A stretch of DNA of 50,378 nt from NCBI GenBank assembly GCA_945882675.1, contig CAMCWU010000003.1, positions 1 through 50,378 on the forward strand. The letters are read 5' to 3'. The position numbers were made by a program, and so were the translations under genes. The DNA is from Klebsiella pneumoniae (lineage in GTDB: Bacteria; Myxococcota_A; UBA796; GCA-2862545). Positions 4,985 through 17,796 of the stretch are shown here, piece after piece (positions within the stretch are counted from its first letter, which is position 1; the number at the start of each line of letters is the position of its first letter). The notes under the pieces are model-generated. The model was given only the letters and a program-made list of their open reading frames with translations. It was not told where the DNA came from and did no database searches.

Positions 4985-6538
4985 TCAGTCCGTGACCGGC
5001 GGGGCGGCCTCCTGGGTCCGCCGCAGCTTCAGGTCCGGGAGCAGCATCGTCAGCCCGAGCCCCGCGAGTGCTATCACCGCGCAGACCTGGTATACCCGGC
5101 GGATCGCCTGGGTCCACACCTCCCGGCCGGCGGCGTCCAGCGCGACTGCCACGGTCTCCGCGTGCTCGCCGACGTCGGGCGCCCCGTGCGCCCCCGCCGC
5201 CAGCGTCGCCGCGAATACGGCGCCCGCGAGCGCCATCCCGACCATCCCGCCCATCGAGCGGAAGAACGTCGCGGCGGACGTCGCCACGCCGATCCGGTCG
5301 GGCGGCGCCGAGTTCTGCACCGCGAGCGTGTACAGCGGGATCGTCGGCCCGAGCCCCAGGCCGATGAGGATCGTCTTGAGCGTGATCTCGAGCCGCGTCG
5401 AGTCCGACGTGAGCGTCAACCCCATCACCAGGAACCCGGTCGCGAGCGTCAACATCGCTGCCAGCATGATCGGCTTGTACCGCCCGATCCGCGACACGAG
5501 CTGCCCCGCGCCGATATTCCCCGCGACCACCCCGAGCGTCATCGGCGTCGTCGCGGTGCCCGCACCCGTCGCCGACGTGCCGACCACGTTCACCAGGAAC
5601 AGCGGGAGGAACGCCATCGACGCGAGAAACGACATGCCGATGACGAAGCTCGCCGACGTCCCGACCGCGAACGTGCGGTCGCGGAACAGCTTCAGATCCA
5701 GCAGGGGCTCGGCCACCCGCCGCTCCGTAAGCACGAACGCCGCGATCCCGACGAACCCGGTCGCGAGCAGCCCTGCGATCTGCCACGACATCCACGGCCA
5801 GCCGACCGGCGCAGCGACCCGCGCGTCGTGGCCCATCGTCATCGCGAGCAACAAAGGTACGACGCCGACGATCAGCGCAATGGCCCCGCCGACGTCGAGC
5901 TTCGCATCCGGCCGCCGCGTGCCGACCTGCGGCATCCGCAGCACCACGAACGCGATCGCGAGCGCGCCCACCGGGAGGTTCACGAAGAACGCCCAGTGCC
6001 AGCCGAAGTGGTCCGCGATGAACCCGCCGACGAGGGGGCCGATGACGCTGCAGACGCCGAAGATCGCGCCGAACAGGCCCTGGTATTTCCCGCGCTCGGA
6101 AGGGGGGAACAGGTCCGCGACGATCGCGAACGCCGTGGTGAAGAGCCCGGCCGCCCCCGCGCCCTGGAGCGCCCGCGCCAGGATGAGCTGCATGGCGTCC
6201 TGCGACACGCCGCACGCCGCCGAGCCGAGCAGGAAGATCGACATGGCCGCGAGCAGCACCGGCTTGCGCCCGAGGATGTCCGAGAGCTTCCCGTAGATCG
6301 GCACCAGCACCGCGGACGTGACCAGGTACGCCGTCGTGATCCACGCGTACAGCGAAGGGGCGATGTGCAGGTCGCGCTGGATGAGCGGACCGGCGGTCGC
6401 CACGATCGTCTGGTCCAACGCGGCGAGCAGCACGCCGAGCAGCGTCCCCGCGAGCGTGAACCCCTTCTGCGACCGGCTCAGCTCCCAGGGCACTCCCGCG
6501 CGCGCACGGAACCGTAAGCACGGCCCACGGGACGTCAC
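4985..6538 (-). CDS. MFS drug exporter, DHA2 (EmrB/QacA-like) family
   Basis: [44 protein letters not shown]; multiple TM segments. Confidence 0.93.
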
Positions 6539-6640: not shown

Positions 6641-8212
6641 ATGCTCACCCTGCTCGCGCTCGCCGCCCACGCTTCCACCACCCTCACCGGCCATCCCGCC
6701 GACGGATTCGGCGCCGAGGTCTCCGCCGCCGGCGACGTCGACGGCGACGGTTACGACGACGTGCTGGTCGCCAAGCCCACGGGCGGTCCGGCCGGCGAAG
6801 GCCAGGTCCACCTGTACCGCGGATCCGCGGCGGGCCTCGAGACCACGCCCGCAGTGACCCTCACGGGCCCGGCTGCCGGGAGCGGGTTCGGCCACTCCGT
6901 GGACGCTGCCGGCGACGTGAACGGAGACGGTTACGGCGACGTGGTCGTCGGTGGCTGGACGTACGACGCGGACCGCGGGTACGCCGCGATCTATCTCGGC
7001 TCCGCGCTCGGGCTGGCCAGCGTGCCGTCCACCGTGATCGAGGGCCTGGTGTCCGACGACCGCCTCGGCGCGTCCGTCGCGGGCGTTGGGGACGTGGACC
7101 GGGACGGCTACGACGACGTCGCGATCGGCGCCCCCGGCAACCCGATGATCCCGGGCTTTCCCGGCCGGGTGGAGGTCTGGGCGGGCAACGCGGCCGGCGC
7201 CCCCACCCTCGCCCGCGAGCTCCCCGGCGAGGACGACGGCTCCTCGTTCGGCGGCTCGGTGTCCGCGGCGGACGTCAACACCGACGGCTACGCCGACGTG
7301 CTCGTCGGCGCGGAGGGCCAGGGCGGCTACACGGGCGCCGTGTACGTGTTCCCGGGCGGCCGCAGGGGCCCGCTCGCGACGAAGTTCCAGCGGATCGACG
7401 GGCGCTTCGCGAACGACTTCTTCGGCGCGGGCGTCGCGGGGGCCGGCGACATCGACGCCGACGGCTACGACGACATCGTCGTGATGGATCGCGCAGGGAC
7501 GGAGGCGCATTTCACCGTCCTGGCCGGGTCCGCGACGCGCGTGCGGGTGGCGCAGGAAGTCGCGACGGACGAGCTCGTCGACGCGATCGACGGCGTGGGC
7601 GACGCGAACCTCGACGGGCACGCGGACGTGGTGGTCGGCGCGATCGCGTGGGACGGCCTCGCGGGCCACGCGCTGCTCTACCCGGGCGGCAACAGCCTCC
7701 TGGGCGTGGGCGAGCCGACGCGCGCGGTCGTCGGCGAATCGGGCGGGGACTTCCTCGGCACGTCCGTCGCCGGGGCGGGCGACGTGGACGGAGACGGGTT
7801 GGCGGACATCGTCGCGGGCGCGTCCGGCGGCGGCGTGGACGGGCTCGCCAGCGCGCACGTGATCGAGGGCAACTACGCGCTCGACATCTCGGTCGGCTCG
7901 TCGCCCGGAACCTGCACGGTCTACCTCGGATACGCCGACCCGGGGGACACGTACCTCGTGTACTTCTCGCCCAGCCCCGGCGCGGGAGGCCCGTGCCCCG
8001 ACGCGCTGGGCGGCCTGTGCTTCGACCTGCGGAAGCCGCGCTATCTCGGCGCGGCCGTCGCGAACTACAGCGGCGGGGCGTCGATCACGAGCGCGGTCCC
8101 GGCGGGCGTGCTGCCCGGCACGCCGGTCACCTTCCAGACGGTCGTGGTCCGCGACCACGGCTGGCAGGAGATCGAGGTCTCCCGTACGATCACGGCGACG
8201 ATCACGCCGTGA
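6641..8212 (+). CDS. FG-GAP repeat (integrin-alpha-like beta-propeller) secreted protein
   Basis: Signal peptide; repeated GDVDGDGYDDV / GDIDADGYDDI / GDVDGDGLADI motifs. Confidence 0.92.
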   Translation: MLTLLALAAHASTTLTGHPADGFGAEVSAAGDVDGDGYDDVLVAKPTGGPAGEGQVHLYRGSAAGLETTPAVTLTGPAAGSGFGHSVDAAGDVNGDGYGDVVVGGWTYDADRGYAAIYLGSALGLASVPSTVIEGLVSDDRLGASVAGVGDVDRDGYDDVAIGAPGNPMIPGFPGRVEVWAGNAAGAPTLARELPGEDDGSSFGGSVSAADVNTDGYADVLVGAEGQGGYTGAVYVFPGGRRGPLATKFQRIDGRFANDFFGAGVAGAGDIDADGYDDIVVMDRAGTEAHFTVLAGSATRVRVAQEVATDELVDAIDGVGDANLDGHADVVVGAIAWDGLAGHALLYPGGNSLLGVGEPTRAVVGESGGDFLGTSVAGAGDVDGDGLADIVAGASGGGVDGLASAHVIEGNYALDISVGSSPGTCTVYLGYADPGDTYLVYFSPSPGAGGPCPDALGGLCFDLRKPRYLGAAVANYSGGASITSAVPAGVLPGTPVTFQTVVVRDHGWQEIEVSRTITATITP

Positions 8213-8350
8213 CCGCGGGGCGGAGCCCGGCGCCCTCGCGCGACGTGAGCACCACGGCTCTGGGCCCCAGACCTGGGTGGGCTTCGAGGCCGAGCTCGCG
8301 GCGGCGGCGCTCTCGCGGCTCGGACCGGCTCTCTCGGGCACTGTGAGGGG

Positions 8351-8440
8351 TTCCAGCCCGTGCCCGGGCTCGGGGCCTCCGGTCCGTGCGGTCGGGACGG
8401 CCACCCGGGGCGTCGTGGACCTCCGAGAGGCCCGCGGCGG
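8351..8440. repeat. Left copy of the flank repeat of the RAYT locus
   Basis: 8351-8381 and 8385-8440 match 10428-10458 and 10565-10620 in direct orientation. Confidence 0.75.
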
Positions 8441-8442
8441 CC

Positions 8443-8572
8443 GGGCCGTCGTTTGCCGGGGGATGGTCAACCATCCCGGGACTTTCGGCGGCCGCGACCG
8501 TCGTTTCCCGGTGCATGGTCAACCATCCCGGCACTTTCGGCAGCCGGGACCGTCGTTCCCCAGGGGGGTGTG
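8443..8572. repeat. REP-like array cluster 1 (two units, 51 and 52 bp, plus a partial third)
   Basis: Units at 8443-8493 and 8494-8545, partial at 8546-8572. Consensus GGGACCGTCGTTTCCCGG(N)3ATGGTCAACCATCCCGGCACTTTCGGCAGCC. Confidence 0.9.
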
Positions 8573-8696
8573 ATCCAAGTCGGTCGGTGGGTGGGTCGCG
8601 AGCGTCGCGGAAGTACGACGACGAGCGGGCGGTTCTCACCACGGCACGATGAGCACGACGTCGGGCTCATGCGACCAGCGCTCGTCCAGGTCGGCT

Positions 8697-8951
8697 CGAT
8701 CCCCGTGATCTTCGTGCCACCCCGTGTGAACTGCATGCTGGCGTGTGTCTCCCGGCGGCCCGCGCGCCCTGCTGCACCGGGAGTCGCGGCGAGGGCACTT
8801 ACAAGCTCCAGTATCAAGCTACGAACCGGATGAGTGCCGCCGCCGTAGGGCGCCAGGGTTTCATGGGTACCCTGGATCTCCGGGTAGAGCTTCCGCGGGA
8901 CGAGCGCCGCCCTGCAGGTTCACACGGAGAACACCAGGATCACGGGGATCG
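8697..8951 (+). mobile_element. MITE-like inverted-repeat element, copy 1 (interrupted by ~90 bp)
   Basis: Ends CGATCCCCGTGATCTTCGTG...GTGTGAACTGCA and TGCAGGTTCACACGGAGAACACCAGGATCACGGGGATCG are imperfect inverted repeats; matches 17507-17664 in inverted orientation. Confidence 0.7.
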
Positions 8952-9024
8952 GGCAGCACGACGAGCCAGGTCGTGCGGTGCCGACTCCTGGGTGGTCACG
9001 CCCTCCTGAAATGCAGGGCGTCCC

Positions 9025-9386
9025 GGGACCGTCGTTTCCCGGGGCATGGTCAACCATCCCCGCACTTTCGGCAGCCGGCAGCTCCCCGCGGCCGGCCGCG
9101 GCGGCGCCCCCGGCGGCCGCGACCGTCGTTTCCCGGGGCATGGTCAACCATCCTGGCACTTTCGGCAGCCGAAACCGTCGTTTCCCGGAGGATGGTCAAC
9201 CATCCCGGCACTTTCGGCAGCCGGGACCGTCGTTTCCCGGGGCATGGTCAACCATCCCGGCACTTTCAGCGGCCGGCCCCGTCGTCGCCGCCGGCGGGCC
9301 GTCGACCGGCACGGCGAGCTGGGCCCCCGGGAGGGCCGGCCCCCCGTGGCCGACAGGGCCGGCACCTTCGGCGGCCGGGACCGTCG
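9025..9386. repeat. REP-like array cluster 2 (four full 52-bp units plus degenerate units)
   Basis: Full units at 9025-9076, 9119-9170, 9171-9222 and 9223-9274. Core-less remnant at 9275-9376 (unit start plus unit end) and another unit start at 9377-9386. Confidence 0.9.
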
Positions 9387-9480
9387 CGGTCGGGCGGGTT
9401 GACAGGTCGAGAGATGCGAAAGGTACTGCGAACGCCCGTTCGAGCGCGCGGACCGGCGCCTCGGATCGCGGACCGGATCG

Positions 9481-9510
9481 CGCCCCCCACAAAAAACACC
9501 ACGGGGGGCG
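9481..9510 (+). promoter_or_regulatory. Hairpin with A-rich loop upstream of the transposase gene
   Basis: CGCCCCCC-ACAAAAAACACCAC-GGGGGGCG: perfect 8-bp arms, 14-nt loop, ending 55 bp before the ATG at 9566. Confidence 0.5.
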
Positions 9511-9565
9511 GAAATCTGGAGGCCGACCTCGGTCGCGCCGCGGGCCGGTGCGGTAACGGGCCTGC

Positions 9566-10390
9566 ATGATTTACCACATCGTGTTCGAGATCCGCGGCCG
9601 CCTCGCCTGGTTCACCACGCCCGAGCGCCTGCGCGCCGCCCTGCGCGTGCTCGCCGATGGGCTCGGCGAGGACCTCCTGCTGTTCGGCGTCGTGGACGAG
9701 CACGCCCATGCCGTGATCCAGGCGAGAGACCGTGCTGAAGCCGGCTATGTCGGCAGCGGTCTGAACCGTGCGCTGCGGCATCTCGGGGCGGACGTCGGCC
9801 CCACGCACGTGACGGAGGTGGAGGACGCGCGGCACCTCGCCAACCTGATCCCGTACATGATGCGCCAGCCGTGGAAGCACCCGATCGCGCCGGACCCGGC
9901 GGACTTCGAGGGCACGTGCTTCCCGGATCTGGTAGGTGCCAGGCGCGGGATCCTGGATCCGACCCGGATCGCCGACGCGCTGCCTCGGGTGGACGTGCCA
10001 GCCACGGCACTGGCTGCGCTGGGCCTCAAAGGTCCCGTGTGTGCGGCGTCGGACGCCGAGATCCTGGCACTCGGAGCGCGTGCGCTGTGGTCGGCGGCAC
10101 ATGCGGCGTTGGCCGCGCCGTCCAGCGGGAGGGTGCCGATCGCCGTCGCGGCCCGACGGGCGTACGCCACGATCGGGCGCGCCGTGGGGCTCCCGGTCGC
10201 GGAGCTCCGCCTCGCGGCGGGGGCTTCCGAGTCGGCCTGGCGGCACATGAGCAGCATCCCGGGCGCGCTGGAGGACCAGCTCGCGGTGCGGACGCTCCTC
10301 GGCTTGCGGGCGTTGATCGCCGCGAACCCGATCGCGACGCGGTATATCCCGCCGGGTTCCCCGCCACCCGTCATGCGCTGGGAGCGGTGA
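9566..10390 (+). CDS. REP-associated tyrosine transposase-like (HUH/Y1, IS200-related) protein with C-terminal extension
   Basis: HIVFEIRGR (Y1 N-terminal pattern); VVDEHAHAVIQ = HxH (HUH) motif at 9701-9709; LANLIPYMMRQPWKHPI = candidate catalytic Tyr helix at 9853-9855, equivalent to the YIxxNPVRA helix; ...DFEGTCFPDLVGAR. Flanked by hairpin repeats. Confidence 0.78.
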   Translation: MIYHIVFEIRGRLAWFTTPERLRAALRVLADGLGEDLLLFGVVDEHAHAVIQARDRAEAGYVGSGLNRALRHLGADVGPTHVTEVEDARHLANLIPYMMRQPWKHPIAPDPADFEGTCFPDLVGARRGILDPTRIADALPRVDVPATALAALGLKGPVCAASDAEILALGARALWSAAHAALAAPSSGRVPIAVAARRAYATIGRAVGLPVAELRLAAGASESAWRHMSSIPGALEDQLAVRTLLGLRALIAANPIATRYIPPGSPPPVMRWER

Positions 10391-10427
10391 CGGCGAGCCA
10401 GGGCCGTTCGCAGGTCTGTTTGGGGGG

Positions 10428-10620
10428 TTCCAGCCCGGGCCCGGGCTCTGGGCCTCCGACGAGGGCCGGGCTCCGAGCCACAAGGAGCGAGAGCCCGGAG
10501 GGGTCGACGAGCGACGACTGAGCAAGGACGCTCGTGCGGAGCGCGAAGGCCCGGCAACGTGAGCCGTGCGGTCGGGACGGCCACCCGGGGCGTCGTGGAC
10601 CACCGAGAGGCCTGCGACGG
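10428..10620. repeat. Right copy of the flank repeat of the RAYT locus, with ~106-bp insertion
   Basis: TTCCAGCCCGGGCCCGGGCTCTGGGCCTCCG (10428-10458) and CGTGCGGTCGGGACGGCCACCCGGGGCGTCGTGGAC... (10565-10620) match 8351-8381 and 8385-8440. Confidence 0.75.
10466..10498 (+). terminator. Hairpin 3' of the transposase gene
   Basis: CCGGGCTC-17 nt-GAGCCCGG, perfect 8-bp arms; preceded by a 16-bp perfect palindrome AGCCCGGGCCCGGGCT at 10432-10447. Confidence 0.4.
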
Positions 10621-10622
10621 CC

Positions 10623-10778
10623 CGCACCGTCGTTTCCCGGTGGATGGTCAACCATCCCGGCAGTTTCAGCGGCCGGGACCGTCGTTTCCCGGTGGATAGT
10701 CAACCATCCCGGCAGTTTCAGCCGCCGGGACCGTCGTTTCCTGGTGGATGGTAGACCATCCCGCTACTTTCGGCGGCC
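10623..10778. repeat. REP-like array cluster 3 (three 52-bp units)
   Basis: Units at 10623-10674, 10675-10726 and 10727-10778, same orientation as clusters 1 and 2. Confidence 0.9.
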
Positions 10779-10829
10779 GGGGGCGCTGACCGGGCGCGTG
10801 TCGATCGTGGGGGCGCCGTCGTCGTCCGA

Positions 10830-12600: not shown

Positions 12601-15600
12601 TCAGCGCGCCCGGATCAGCCCCGCCAGCTCCTCCGCCGACAGGCCGGCCGCCATGTCCGCGCCTTCGAGCACCTTGTCCGCGAGGTCGCGCTTGGTGCGG
12701 TGCAGCGCCACGATGCGCTCCTCGATCGTCCCTTTCGCGACGAGGCGGTAGACCGTGACCGGGCGCGTCTGGCCGATCCGGTGGGCGCGATCGGAGGCTT
12801 GATCCTCGACCGCCGGGTTCCACCACGGGTCGAGGTGCACCACGTAGTCCGCCGCCGTCAGGTTCAGCCCGAAGCCGCCCGCGCGCAGGCTGATCAGGAA
12901 CAGCTCGCCCTGCCCCGCCTGGAACGCCGCGACGCGCTTGTCGCGCTCCGCCGCGGGCGTCTCCCCGTCGAGGTACTGGTAGGAGATCCCGCGCGCGTCG
13001 AGCCACTCCCGGATCAGCGTGAGGTGGCGTACGAACTGGCTGAACACGAGCGCGCGGTGATGGTTCTCGGCGAGCGCTTCGACGATGTGGGCGAACGCGT
13101 CGCGCTTGGCGCTCACGTCCGGGCCGTCCGGCAGGATCAGGCGCGCGTGGCACGCCGCGAGGCGCAGACGCGTGATCTCGGCCAGGAGCTCGATGTGCCC
13201 GGCCTTCCCGAGCGTCAGCGCGTCGAGGGCCCGCTGGCGCGTGGCGTCGTAGATCGCGGCCTGCTCGGGGCCGAGCTCGACGTCGAGCTGGATCTCGGTC
13301 CGCGGCGGCAGATCCTGCAGGACCTGGGCCTTGGTGCGCCGGAGGACGAACGGCGTGGCGACCCGACGCAGATGCTGCTGGACGTCGCGATTGCCGGCCT
13401 CGATCGGGCGCACGAAGCGGTCGCCGAACTGCCGCACGGTCCCGAGCATCCCGGGGTTCAGGAACGACGAGAGCGCCCAGAGCTCCTGCAGGCGGTTCTC
13501 GACGGGCGTACCGGTCAGGGCGACGCGGAACCTCGCGTTCAGCTGGAGCGCGGCCTTGTGCCGCTGGGTCTCGGGGTTCTTGATGGCGTGGGCCTCGTCG
13601 AGGACGACGGTCGCCCACTGGATCGCCGCGTACTTCGCCGGGTCCCGCGCGAGCATCCCGTAGGAGGTCACCACGACCGTCCCGGGCGCCGCGGCGTCGA
13701 GGTCCACGAACCGCAGCGACGGCGCGAACCGCCACGCCTCCGCTCGCCATACGCCGACGACCGAGGTCGGAGCGACCACGAGGGCCGGCCCCTCGTCCGC
13801 GCGCGCGAGGAGCGCCGCCAGCGTCGTCACGGTCTTGCCGAGCCCCATGTCGTCGGCGAGGCAGGCGCCTGCGCCGAGGGCCGCCATCCGCATGAGCCAG
13901 CGGTAGCCGTCCGCCTGGTAGGGGCGGAGCTCGGCCTGCAGCGAGGTGGGAATATCGGTCCGCGGCTCGATCTCGGGGATCGGGACGTCGGCGAGCGGGG
14001 CGAGCGCGCCCGCGACGAGGGGGTGGACCTCCACGCGCCCCTGGCGGACGCGGCCCACCCGCGCCAGGCCCGCGAGCTGCCGCGCGAGCTCGGCCGTCAA
14101 CGCCACGAACGAGCCGTCGTCGAGGCGCACGAACCGTCCCGTCGCCGTGCCCATCCGCTCGACCAGCTCGCCGAGCGACAGCGCCAGGTCCGCGTCGACC
14201 TGGAGCGAGCCCGATGCGGCCAGCCACTCGTCGGCGGTGCCCCGCACGGAGACCTGGATCTTCCCGCGCTTCGACGTGTTGCGCAGGCGGAGGGCCTGGC
14301 CCTCGGGCCACTCGAGGACCACGTCGTCGCCGAGCGCGCGCACGCCGTCGAGCAGCTCGAGGACCGCGACGGCGTCCGGGAGCGTCGTGTCCGTGCCATC
14401 CCAGCCCTCGAACCCGGGGATCTCGCCGATCCGCAGGAGGGCGGTGCGCTCGGCGTCCAGGTCCCGCTCGGCGCGCTGCGCCTGCTCGCCGACGCGCGAC
14501 AGCACGGACGCGGCGCCCAGGCCGGGAACCAGCGTCGGCCCCGCCGGCCCGAGCGGCCGCACGACCACCCGGACCCGCGCGCCCGATCCGGCAGGGCGGA
14601 GCTGCACGACCGCCCGGGGGTCGCCCACCGTGCGCTGCGCCTCGCCGGCCGTCACGTCGAACCGGGCCGCGAGGCCGTCGGCCAGCCGCGTGGCCCGGGA
14701 GGCGGGCGCGGCCAGCCCGTCCCCCAGCAGCCGCGCGATGCGGAGCTGCGCCTCGTCGAATACGCACACCTCGAACCCGCGGTCGCCGACGGCCTCGACG
14801 TGCACGCCGTTCGCGTCCGGCACGGGCACGCTGCGCAGCACGCGCCCGGCGCCCTCCACGTGGACCTCTACGCGAGGTCGTACGCCCACGATCGTGAGGT
14901 GGTTCCCCGCCGCGTCGTAGACCCGCGGGTGCCCGACGAGCGCCGGCCACGCGAGGTGCGGCGCCCACTCGAAGTCCGACTCCAGCGCGAAGTGGTGGCG
15001 CGCGCGCACCGCCGTCAGCAGCTTGCGGTCGTCCGCGTCGAGGGACTCCACCGGGCTCCCCGCCCCGCGCAGGCGCGAGAAGGGCACGCGCTTCCCGGCG
15101 GACCACCCCGTCTTCGTGCGGACCTGCTCGAGCGCTTCGAGCCGGAGCGGCGCCGTGCGGAGCACCCACGCGATCCGGGCCCGGGCCTGGGTCACGAGCG
15201 GCCCGAGGTCGAGGAGCGCCTCGATCGCGTCCAGCCGGCTCTCGCCGTCCGACGTCATCTTCCGGAGCTTAAGCAGGCTGCCGGCCCCGAGCTCGTGCTC
15301 GACCCACGCCCAGCCCGCCGCGCGCGCCAGCGCCTTCGCGTCGGCGAGCCGGTGCGCGGCGATCGGCTTCCCGAGCCAGCTCCCGACCAGGTGCTCCAGC
15401 AGCACGCCGAGCGGGTGCGTCGCGGCCGGCGGCACGTCCAGGTCGGGCTGGCGGAGCCGCGCGAGGTGCGCCCACGGCCGGAGCGCCACCGCCGCGATCA
15501 GGTCGTCCGCGGCCTTCGACATCTTGTCGGAGCCTTCGAGCACGTACGCGAGCGGCTGGAGCATCCCCTCCGGCATGGGCAGGCCCGACTTCCGCGACTT

Positions 15601-16365
15601 CGTGCGCTTCCGCTCGCCGGCCAGGGCCTTGTGGTAGGCGGCCGCCGCTTCTTTCGGCCGGCCGTCGATCAAGTGGAGGAGCCCCGTGAGCCCGCGGTCC
15701 GTCGCCGGGTCGAGGCCCTTCGCGAGCGATCGCGCGTCTTCGAGGTCGCCGGCCAGCAGGGCCTCCCGGGCCGCCACGCGCCGGAGCTCGGGCGTGGGGC
15801 CCGCCTTCACGAGCCGCGCGCTCAGCGCCCGCAGCCCGCCGCCCGGGGCCGCGTCCATCGCCACCGCGTCCGACGCCGCTGCCAGCGCGACCTCGGCCAG
15901 CTCCGGCGGCAGGCTGCGCCACAGGCCGTCGTCCGGCGGGCCGAGCGCGACGTCGGCGACCGCCCGCGCGACCAGATCGGCGTCGGCCGGGGGCATCCGC
16001 GTGAGGGTGAGCGTGTACAGCGCGCGCCGGACCTCGCGCCGGACGGTGCTGGACCGCGGCCCCTGGAGGCTCCAGGACCGCTCGAACAGGGGGATCTGCG
16101 CGGCGATCCGCGGGTAGAGCTCGGCGTAGCGGTCGGTCCCGCGCAGGGCGCGCAGGCGCGGCTCGCGCACGTCCCGCGGCAGGTCGGCGCGGTCCGCGCT
16201 CCAGGTGAGGCCGTGCTGCCGCAGGCCGTCCACCACCATCAGCATCGTCCCCCGCATGCGCCCGTCCACGGGCGACATCCCCGCGAGGGACAGGAGCTGG
16301 TACGTGGTGAGCGGCTCGTCCGCGATGGTGACGAGATCGAGGACGAGGGCTTCGAGGGGATTCAT
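12601..16365 (-). CDS. SNF2-family DEAD/DEAH-box helicase
   Basis: LRPYQADGYRWLMRMAALGAGACLADDMGLGKTVTTLAALL (Walker A), VVLDEAHAIKN (DEAH), ALTGTPVENRLQELWAL, SLRAGGFGLNLTAADYVVHLDPWWNPAVEDQASDRAHRIGQ. Confidence 0.97.
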   Translation of the reverse strand: MNPLEALVLDLVTIADEPLTTYQLLSLAGMSPVDGRMRGTMLMVVDGLRQHGLTWSADRADLPRDVREPRLRALRGTDRYAELYPRIAAQIPLFERSWSLQGPRSSTVRREVRRALYTLTLTRMPPADADLVARAVADVALGPPDDGLWRSLPPELAEVALAAASDAVAMDAAPGGGLRALSARLVKAGPTPELRRVAAREALLAGDLEDARSLAKGLDPATDRGLTGLLHLIDGRPKEAAAAYHKALAGERKRTKSRKSGLPMPEGMLQPLAYVLEGSDKMSKAADDLIAAVALRPWAHLARLRQPDLDVPPAATHPLGVLLEHLVGSWLGKPIAAHRLADAKALARAAGWAWVEHELGAGSLLKLRKMTSDGESRLDAIEALLDLGPLVTQARARIAWVLRTAPLRLEALEQVRTKTGWSAGKRVPFSRLRGAGSPVESLDADDRKLLTAVRARHHFALESDFEWAPHLAWPALVGHPRVYDAAGNHLTIVGVRPRVEVHVEGAGRVLRSVPVPDANGVHVEAVGDRGFEVCVFDEAQLRIARLLGDGLAAPASRATRLADGLAARFDVTAGEAQRTVGDPRAVVQLRPAGSGARVRVVVRPLGPAGPTLVPGLGAASVLSRVGEQAQRAERDLDAERTALLRIGEIPGFEGWDGTDTTLPDAVAVLELLDGVRALGDDVVLEWPEGQALRLRNTSKRGKIQVSVRGTADEWLAASGSLQVDADLALSLGELVERMGTATGRFVRLDDGSFVALTAELARQLAGLARVGRVRQGRVEVHPLVAGALAPLADVPIPEIEPRTDIPTSLQAELRPYQADGYRWLMRMAALGAGACLADDMGLGKTVTTLAALLARADEGPALVVAPTSVVGVWRAEAWRFAPSLRFVDLDAAAPGTVVVTSYGMLARDPAKYAAIQWATVVLDEAHAIKNPETQRHKAALQLNARFRVALTGTPVENRLQELWALSSFLNPGMLGTVRQFGDRFVRPIEAGNRDVQQHLRRVATPFVLRRTKAQVLQDLPPRTEIQLDVELGPEQAAIYDATRQRALDALTLGKAGHIELLAEITRLRLAACHARLILPDGPDVSAKRDAFAHIVEALAENHHRALVFSQFVRHLTLIREWLDARGISYQYLDGETPAAERDKRVAAFQAGQGELFLISLRAGGFGLNLTAADYVVHLDPWWNPAVEDQASDRAHRIGQTRPVTVYRLVAKGTIEERIVALHRTKRDLADKVLEGADMAAGLSAEELAGLIRAR

Positions 16366-17312: not shown

Positions 17313-17506
17313 GTGCACCTCTGCGGGGTACGGATGCACGGAGCGTGCCAGCGGATCATGGAGGTTCCACGAGGCTCTCGCGCGAGCGTGCGACGGGCTG
17401 TCAATCGCGGGGGCCGGGTGACAATCGGCGACGACACATTGACGCAGCTCGTTTGATCCGTGCTTCACCCCGCACGTCGTAGCAGACGAGCGCTCGTCGT
17501 GGCGCC

Positions 17507-17664
17507 CGATCCCCGTGATCCTGGTGTTCTCCGTGTGAACCTGCACGGCGGCGCTCGTCCCACGGAAGCTCACCCGGAGATCCAGGGCACCCATGACGCG
17601 CGGGCCTCCGGGAGACGTGCACAGGCTGCAGTTCACACAGCGGGCACGAAGATCACGGGGGTCG
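17507..17664 (-). mobile_element. MITE-like inverted-repeat element, copy 2 (uninterrupted, 158 bp, inverted relative to copy 1)
   Basis: CGATCCCCGTGATCCTGGTGTTCTCCGTGTGAACCTGCAC...CTGCAGTTCACACAGCGGGCACGAAGATCACGGGGGTCG; imperfect ~38-bp terminal inverted repeats. Confidence 0.7.
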
Positions 17665-17796
17665 TGCGGCCCTGGGACGCGCGCGGACCGGCGCCCGGCC
17701 ACCGAGGGCGGGCTCGAGCAACCCCAACCCGAAGAACCCACAGAGCGCGCGGACGTTTGTCGGGGGCTCGTGCCCGAGGGTCCCCGGAATGTCCGG

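Follow-up and report, generated by a model that had tools for sequence, protein, structure and literature searches.

The gene at positions 9566 to 10390 of the window (the whole stretch of DNA that was analyzed, 50,378 nucleotides) is a member of an undescribed and divergent HUH/Y1 family in Myxococcota-type bacteria, and it lies among tandem hairpin repeats of its own. We regard the gene and its repeats as a REP/RAYT-like system with a probability of about two in three, in which the HUH protein would multiply and spread its own hairpins, and in which the array is perhaps also bound as a duplex.

Tandem hairpin units around the gene

The features of the locus and the evidence for each are the following:

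8440..8548, plus strand: hairpin array 1, two units, with a partial third extending to 8565 (repeat search, TRF)
9023..9079, plus strand: first unit of hairpin array 2, 94 bp before the next (repeat search)
9117..9277, plus strand: three 52-bp units of hairpin array 2 (repeat search, TRF)
9359..9383, plus strand: solitary unit-junction fragment (sequence search)
9566..10390, plus strand: Y1/HUH transposase-like gene, 274 aa (ORF, homologs, predicted fold)
9701..9709, plus strand: HUH motif H46-A47-H48 (the two His do not vary among the 33 sequences of the alignment)
9854..9856, plus strand: putative catalytic Tyr97 in helix 88-104, motif Y---Q (alignment, model)
10136..10252, plus strand: C-terminal helices, residues 191-229, a putative helix-turn-helix (HTH) (model secondary structure; weak HTH_23 in homologs)
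10621..10781, plus strand: hairpin array 3, three units, 3' of the gene (repeat search, TRF)

Nine units are in register in three clusters, all on the plus strand, and flank the 274-aa ORF, which is intact and located between clusters 2 and 3. The units lie at 8440-8496 and 8492-8548 (array 1), at 9023-9079, 9117-9173, 9169-9225, and 9221-9277 (array 2), and at 10621-10677, 10673-10729, and 10725-10781 (array 3). A sequence-only reading of this DNA had described at least nine 52-bp units in one orientation and three clusters, all of which were recovered here, and the further copy that it gave as 51 bp is probably the first unit, which has a one-base deletion. The units are 82 to 95% identical to the reference copy and are spaced at 52 bp, with the sole exception of the 94 bp from the first to the second unit of the middle cluster; the TRF scores of the three clusters (188, 273, and 251) make them the top tandem arrays in the window. 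The window unit has CGTCG, and not AASTC, at the matching position. A search of the window against Rfam found no known RNA, and a CRISPR was excluded, as the linker recurs along with the rest of the unit and there are no unique spacers.

The core ATGGTCAACCATCC is present in 13 copies per strand in its own 3.7-Mb MAG (reversed control, 0), and the core GATGGTYDACCATC has 28 and 31 matches on the two strands of the same genome. In each of 59 relatives there are two or fewer matches to GATGGTYDACCATC per strand, similar to the reversed control.

The surroundings contain other repeats and genes. Between arrays 1 and 2 (window 8566-8966) is an apparently non-coding dispersed repeat of ~400 bp, with further copies on contigs C246 (two), C99, C201, and C18 and a partial copy at window 17492-17684; several copies adjoin 51/52-bp arrays. 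A dispersed repeat of ~155 bp is located at window 8344-8440 and 10412-10620 and is found at about 30 places in the genome; arrays 1 and 3, as well as an array on C150, start where this repeat ends. The neighboring gene at 6641-8212 codes for an FG-GAP repeat protein (Pfam), and transporter-like and helicase-like ORFs, named from their translations alone, are on the other strand at 4985-6538 and 12601-16365.

A predicted Y1/HUH protein with a helical C-terminus

The ORF was initially singled out for an HxH motif and a downstream tyrosine, and both are present in the 274-aa product, as H46-A-H48 and Y97. Among the 33 aligned sequences Y97 is almost invariant and Q101 is invariant, and the window protein reads Y97-MMR-Q-P. 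Pfam Y1_Tnp (PF01797) aligns with residues 1-56 of the window protein at 13.6 bits, such that the Pfam check proposed earlier falls below the gathering cutoff of 23; weak Y1_Tnp matches are present in 9 of 16 homologs at E values up to 0.1 (best, 2.5e-5), and HTH_23 matches weakly in 6 of the 16. Searches with the window protein returned nothing from NCBIfam and only chance matches from the PDB (phmmer), and the only PDB entries reached by a profile of the 16 homologs are transposases of the IS200/IS605 type (ISDra2-related 2fyx, E 0.0025).

An AlphaFold model (AF2, 33 sequences; pLDDT 92, pTM 0.88) has a predicted E-H-E-E-H-E-H Y1/HUH core followed by an all-helical C-terminus. The proposed structural comparison bore out a relationship to E. 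coli TnpA-REP, in that the top Foldseek match of the model in the PDB is 4er8 (E 4.7e-4, probability 1.00, TM 0.56 by target), which is the E. coli TnpA-REP/RAYT with a bound REP hairpin; the matches below it are weak and mixed, with IS200/ISDra2 TnpA prominent. Third codon positions are the most divergent between paralogs, an excess that points to purifying selection on the gene.

A family with a patchy distribution

The window's own genome, a MAG of 3.7 Mb that is 81% complete, has five divergent members of the family, on contigs C3, C99, C205, C76, and C220, and the paralogs are 38 to 56% identical to the window protein, with the most divergent at 27%. A sixth match, on C212, reads as a metallophosphoesterase-like frame and is spurious. 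The first profile search of the genome contigs, with a narrow alignment, gave no match, and no canonical Y1_Tnp was found in this genome at E 1e-5.

In a sample of 331 genomes of the phylum, the family is present in 28 at E values up to 1e-10, almost all of them in one order, and the maximum is 19 family matches in a genome. The distribution is patchy, and a genome of the same genus (G001) is without the family. We use two subfamilies, A and B, which are a working split by score and not by tree. Named relatives with the family are MAGs with titles that are mostly Deltaproteobacteria, Myxococcota, or Myxococcales, and the phylum name used here is deduced from these titles. The contigs with the members L155, L164, L170, L172, and L178 come from MAGs and bear the titles Klebsiella pneumoniae or Bifidobacterium breve, which look wrong for these sequences.

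Arrays accompany the gene across genomes

A tandem array is present within 600 bp of the gene in 55 of 105 cases, comprising 30 of the 49 subfamily A genes and 25 of the 56 in subfamily B, a count that took TRF periods of 30 to 130 and includes a few low-complexity runs that are not hairpin arrays. Most of the near-gene arrays are hairpin arrays private to that gene. The flank is cut by a contig end in 13 further genes, a kind of break that repeats would cause, and for 37 genes there is no array within 600 bp and the contig does not end nearby. Distal flanks totaling 557 kb contain only two 51-bp arrays. Random 20-kb pieces adding up to 600 kb from two genomes without the gene contain no 51/52-bp array, and pieces of the same total length from two genomes with the gene contain one; genome-wide array counts here come from searches and such sampled pieces. 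No arrays accompany four canonical Y1 loci elsewhere. For the arm motif GCAACCGAASTCG, 62 copies were counted in six of the nine f2 genomes with a subfamily A gene (reversed control, 0), and a single copy in the 13 f2 genomes without one (reversed control, 5). Repeat copies track the gene across genomes.

Upstream arrays mostly stop about 35 to 200 bp before the gene, many arrays are downstream of it, and arrays are also dispersed at unrelated loci, with the dispersed copies being modest in number, in the tens. The window gene, like that of several relatives, has arrays to its left and right. An array beside a gene of G053 is absent at the matching flank in G055, G057, and G062, which are without an A gene; one flank is conserved in this empty-site comparison and the other is not, and the difference appears consistent with either gain or loss of the array. 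We found no paper describing these arrays, which is not proof of absence. At L385 and L386 of G063, a genome of another family in the same class, 73-bp arrays flank the gene on both sides.

Hairpin anatomy and quantized array periods

Array sequences vary from gene to gene. Several well-defined arrays are organized as hairpin-linker-hairpin, with a left outer arm first and a right outer arm last, and hairpins are most often 46 nt long and joined by 5-nt linkers, as given by an automatic stem finder that is imprecise for some arrays. The periods of near-gene arrays cluster at 50-53, 62-65, 73, 82-84, and 95 bp, and are steps of one helical turn at near-whole numbers of turns. The 21 periods that lie outside the 51-53 mode follow a series rising from 51.4 in steps of 10.5 bp, with none of 200,000 uniform draws fitting as well, and step sizes from 10.4 to 11 fit these periods similarly. 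This family-wide pattern of a ~46-nt hairpin and periods quantized in helical turns goes beyond what was noted in the sequence-only reading. Covariation in 56 aligned units from related genomes is 0.153; shuffles give 0.121 (0 of 500), and slid controls are at or below 0.064.

In an unbiased 5-mer scan of the arrays AAGTC ranks first and AACTC is within the top three, and AA[CG]TC is enriched, in 23 of 49 arrays versus 5.8 in shuffles. GTAG is depleted (8 of 49 arrays versus 15.1), GT[AG]G is in 25 of 49 versus 33.1, and GGGGWSAS is at chance (2 of 49 array units versus 1.7). CGTC-tag REPs were considered and rejected, with CGTC at expectation in the arrays. A positional STCR motif, first noticed by eye, is significant in subfamily A but not in B alone (P 0.07), and the array families share ancestry. 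Protein and hairpin similarity are weakly correlated (Mantel r of 0.14 overall and 0.22 within A).

Comparison with known systems

RAYT-associated hairpins have a GT[AG]G foot, REPs typically number in the hundreds of copies, and the terminal repeats of TIRYTs have a GGGGWSAS motif. In a survey of TnpAY1 proteins, class 2 (RAYT) has a Y---NP signature, and its subclass 2.1 is HTH-bearing, has Y---NP, and is found without REP-like sequences (PMC6006769); subclass 2.1 corresponds to most of the TIRYTs of PMC3733652. Subclass 1.2 proteins have Y---Q--HH, are ~148 aa long and mostly cyanobacterial or from Bacteroidetes, and have no repeats (PMC6006769). The family matches none of the rows of this survey.

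Like RAYT/TnpA-REP (4er8), the window protein has a predicted Y1/HUH fold, an HUH motif, and one downstream Tyr, its gene is flanked by its own hairpin repeats with dispersed copies, and there are divergent paralogs, each with its own repeat. Unlike RAYT/TnpA-REP, the family has Y---Q and not Y---NP, is ~270 aa long with a helical C-terminus, and has units in which GTAG is depleted; its hairpins, of ~46 nt, follow one another as direct tandem repeats at helical-turn spacing and number in the tens rather than hundreds. Because Y---NP is absent and GTAG is depleted, we consider the locus a variant of the REP/RAYT kind and not a class 2 member. The earlier designation as a RAYT-REP locus therefore stands as to a Y1/HUH fold closest to TnpA-REP and to dispersed hairpins of its own that track the gene, but not as to membership of class 2, from which Y---Q, the long helical HTH-like C-terminus, and the GTAG-depleted units set it apart.

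The long Y1 protein resembles that of TIRYT/subclass 2.1 (Bertels group 1), as may its putative HTH-like C-terminal part, which is helical in the model, but the family is without Y---NP, has arrays, and has GGGGWSAS at chance level. It shares Y---Q with IS200/IS605 TnpA, which is the sole kind of protein matched by the family profile among PDB chains, although there are no near-identical copies in its own genome; many homologs have the Y---Q--HH of subclass 1.2, but the family is longer than ~148 aa and has repeats. Pseudomonas fluorescens SBW25 has tandem REP/REPIN arrays at alternating 72 and 112 bp (PMC3116915), and these resemble the present arrays in being regularly spaced in a RAYT-bearing genome, but the SBW25 spacing is longer, the RAYT class is another, and no helical series was reported.

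Proposed mechanism and alternatives

The family probably copies and spreads its hairpins through the genome. We infer a scheme of nicking, strand transfer, duplex binding, and mobility, together with a meaning for the helical phasing. The ORF product would act as an endonuclease/ligase on single strands, its Y1/HUH core being extended by a helical, HTH-like C-terminal part, and would recognize its own ~46-nt hairpin by an outer stem, a short internal loop (AA[CG]TC/[CG]TCG-type motif), and an inner hairpin. A nick would be made beside the hairpin in single-stranded DNA, for example at replication forks, and joining of the ends would copy hairpins both in tandem and to dispersed sites, with the gene-side arrays being cognate or founder copies. 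The protein or its HTH-like tail may also bind the array as a duplex on one face, with only in-phase arrays being kept; such a duplex-bound second state is suggested because helical phasing is not needed for single-strand hairpins. The fullest version, in which an undescribed HUH-plus-HTH class uses the array both as a duplex, whose unit spacing of 5, 6, 7, 8, or 9 helical turns would align bound protein molecules along one face, and as single-strand hairpins that the HUH site would cut and copy, is put forward tentatively, as we give it a rather low chance of being correct.

Alternatively, the arrays could serve as duplex operators or iterons, with the helical/HTH part autoregulating the gene or organizing DNA and the HUH core being secondary or used elsewhere. 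Near-integral helical-turn spacing is as in duplex-bound iterons, the homologs have an HTH signal, and upstream arrays mostly terminate about 35 to 200 bp ahead of the gene, but against it are the many downstream arrays and the dispersal at unrelated loci; moreover, covariation along the 20-bp imperfect hairpin favors folded single strands, and the HUH and Tyr residues are invariant or almost so. We consider this explanation unlikely.

A divergent IS200/IS605 insertion sequence, with the hairpins as transposon ends and the gene moving autonomously, would fit the Y---Q seen in class 1 (PMC6006769) and the two-sided arrays of the window and several relatives. It is nonetheless very unlikely, as the own-genome paralogs are 27 to 56% identical to the window protein and so differ from near-identical IS copies, the length of 274 aa exceeds the usual ~150, and the arrays are multi-unit direct repeats. 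Highly improbable is that tandem repeats unrelated to the gene, such as minisatellites or terminators, have gathered there by chance: these GC-rich genomes do have further tandem repeats, but the proximity enrichment is strong, the repeats track the gene across genomes, and hairpin size, quantized period, and motif are held in common. Chance clustering of repeats is rejected by the flank, gene-free-genome, and GCAACCGAASTCG counts.

Implications

A REP/RAYT-like system of this kind would widen the range of REP/RAYT systems to include a protein clade that differs in its Tyr motif and has an HTH-like tail, and a literature search found no such report for this bacterial group. The dozens of natural gene-hairpin pairs would enable study of hairpin recognition by these nucleases. 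An unexpected constraint is the fixed helical spacing, and we know of no existing REP model that predicts it. If the array does have two states, then selection would have acted on helical phase in a REP-like selfish element.
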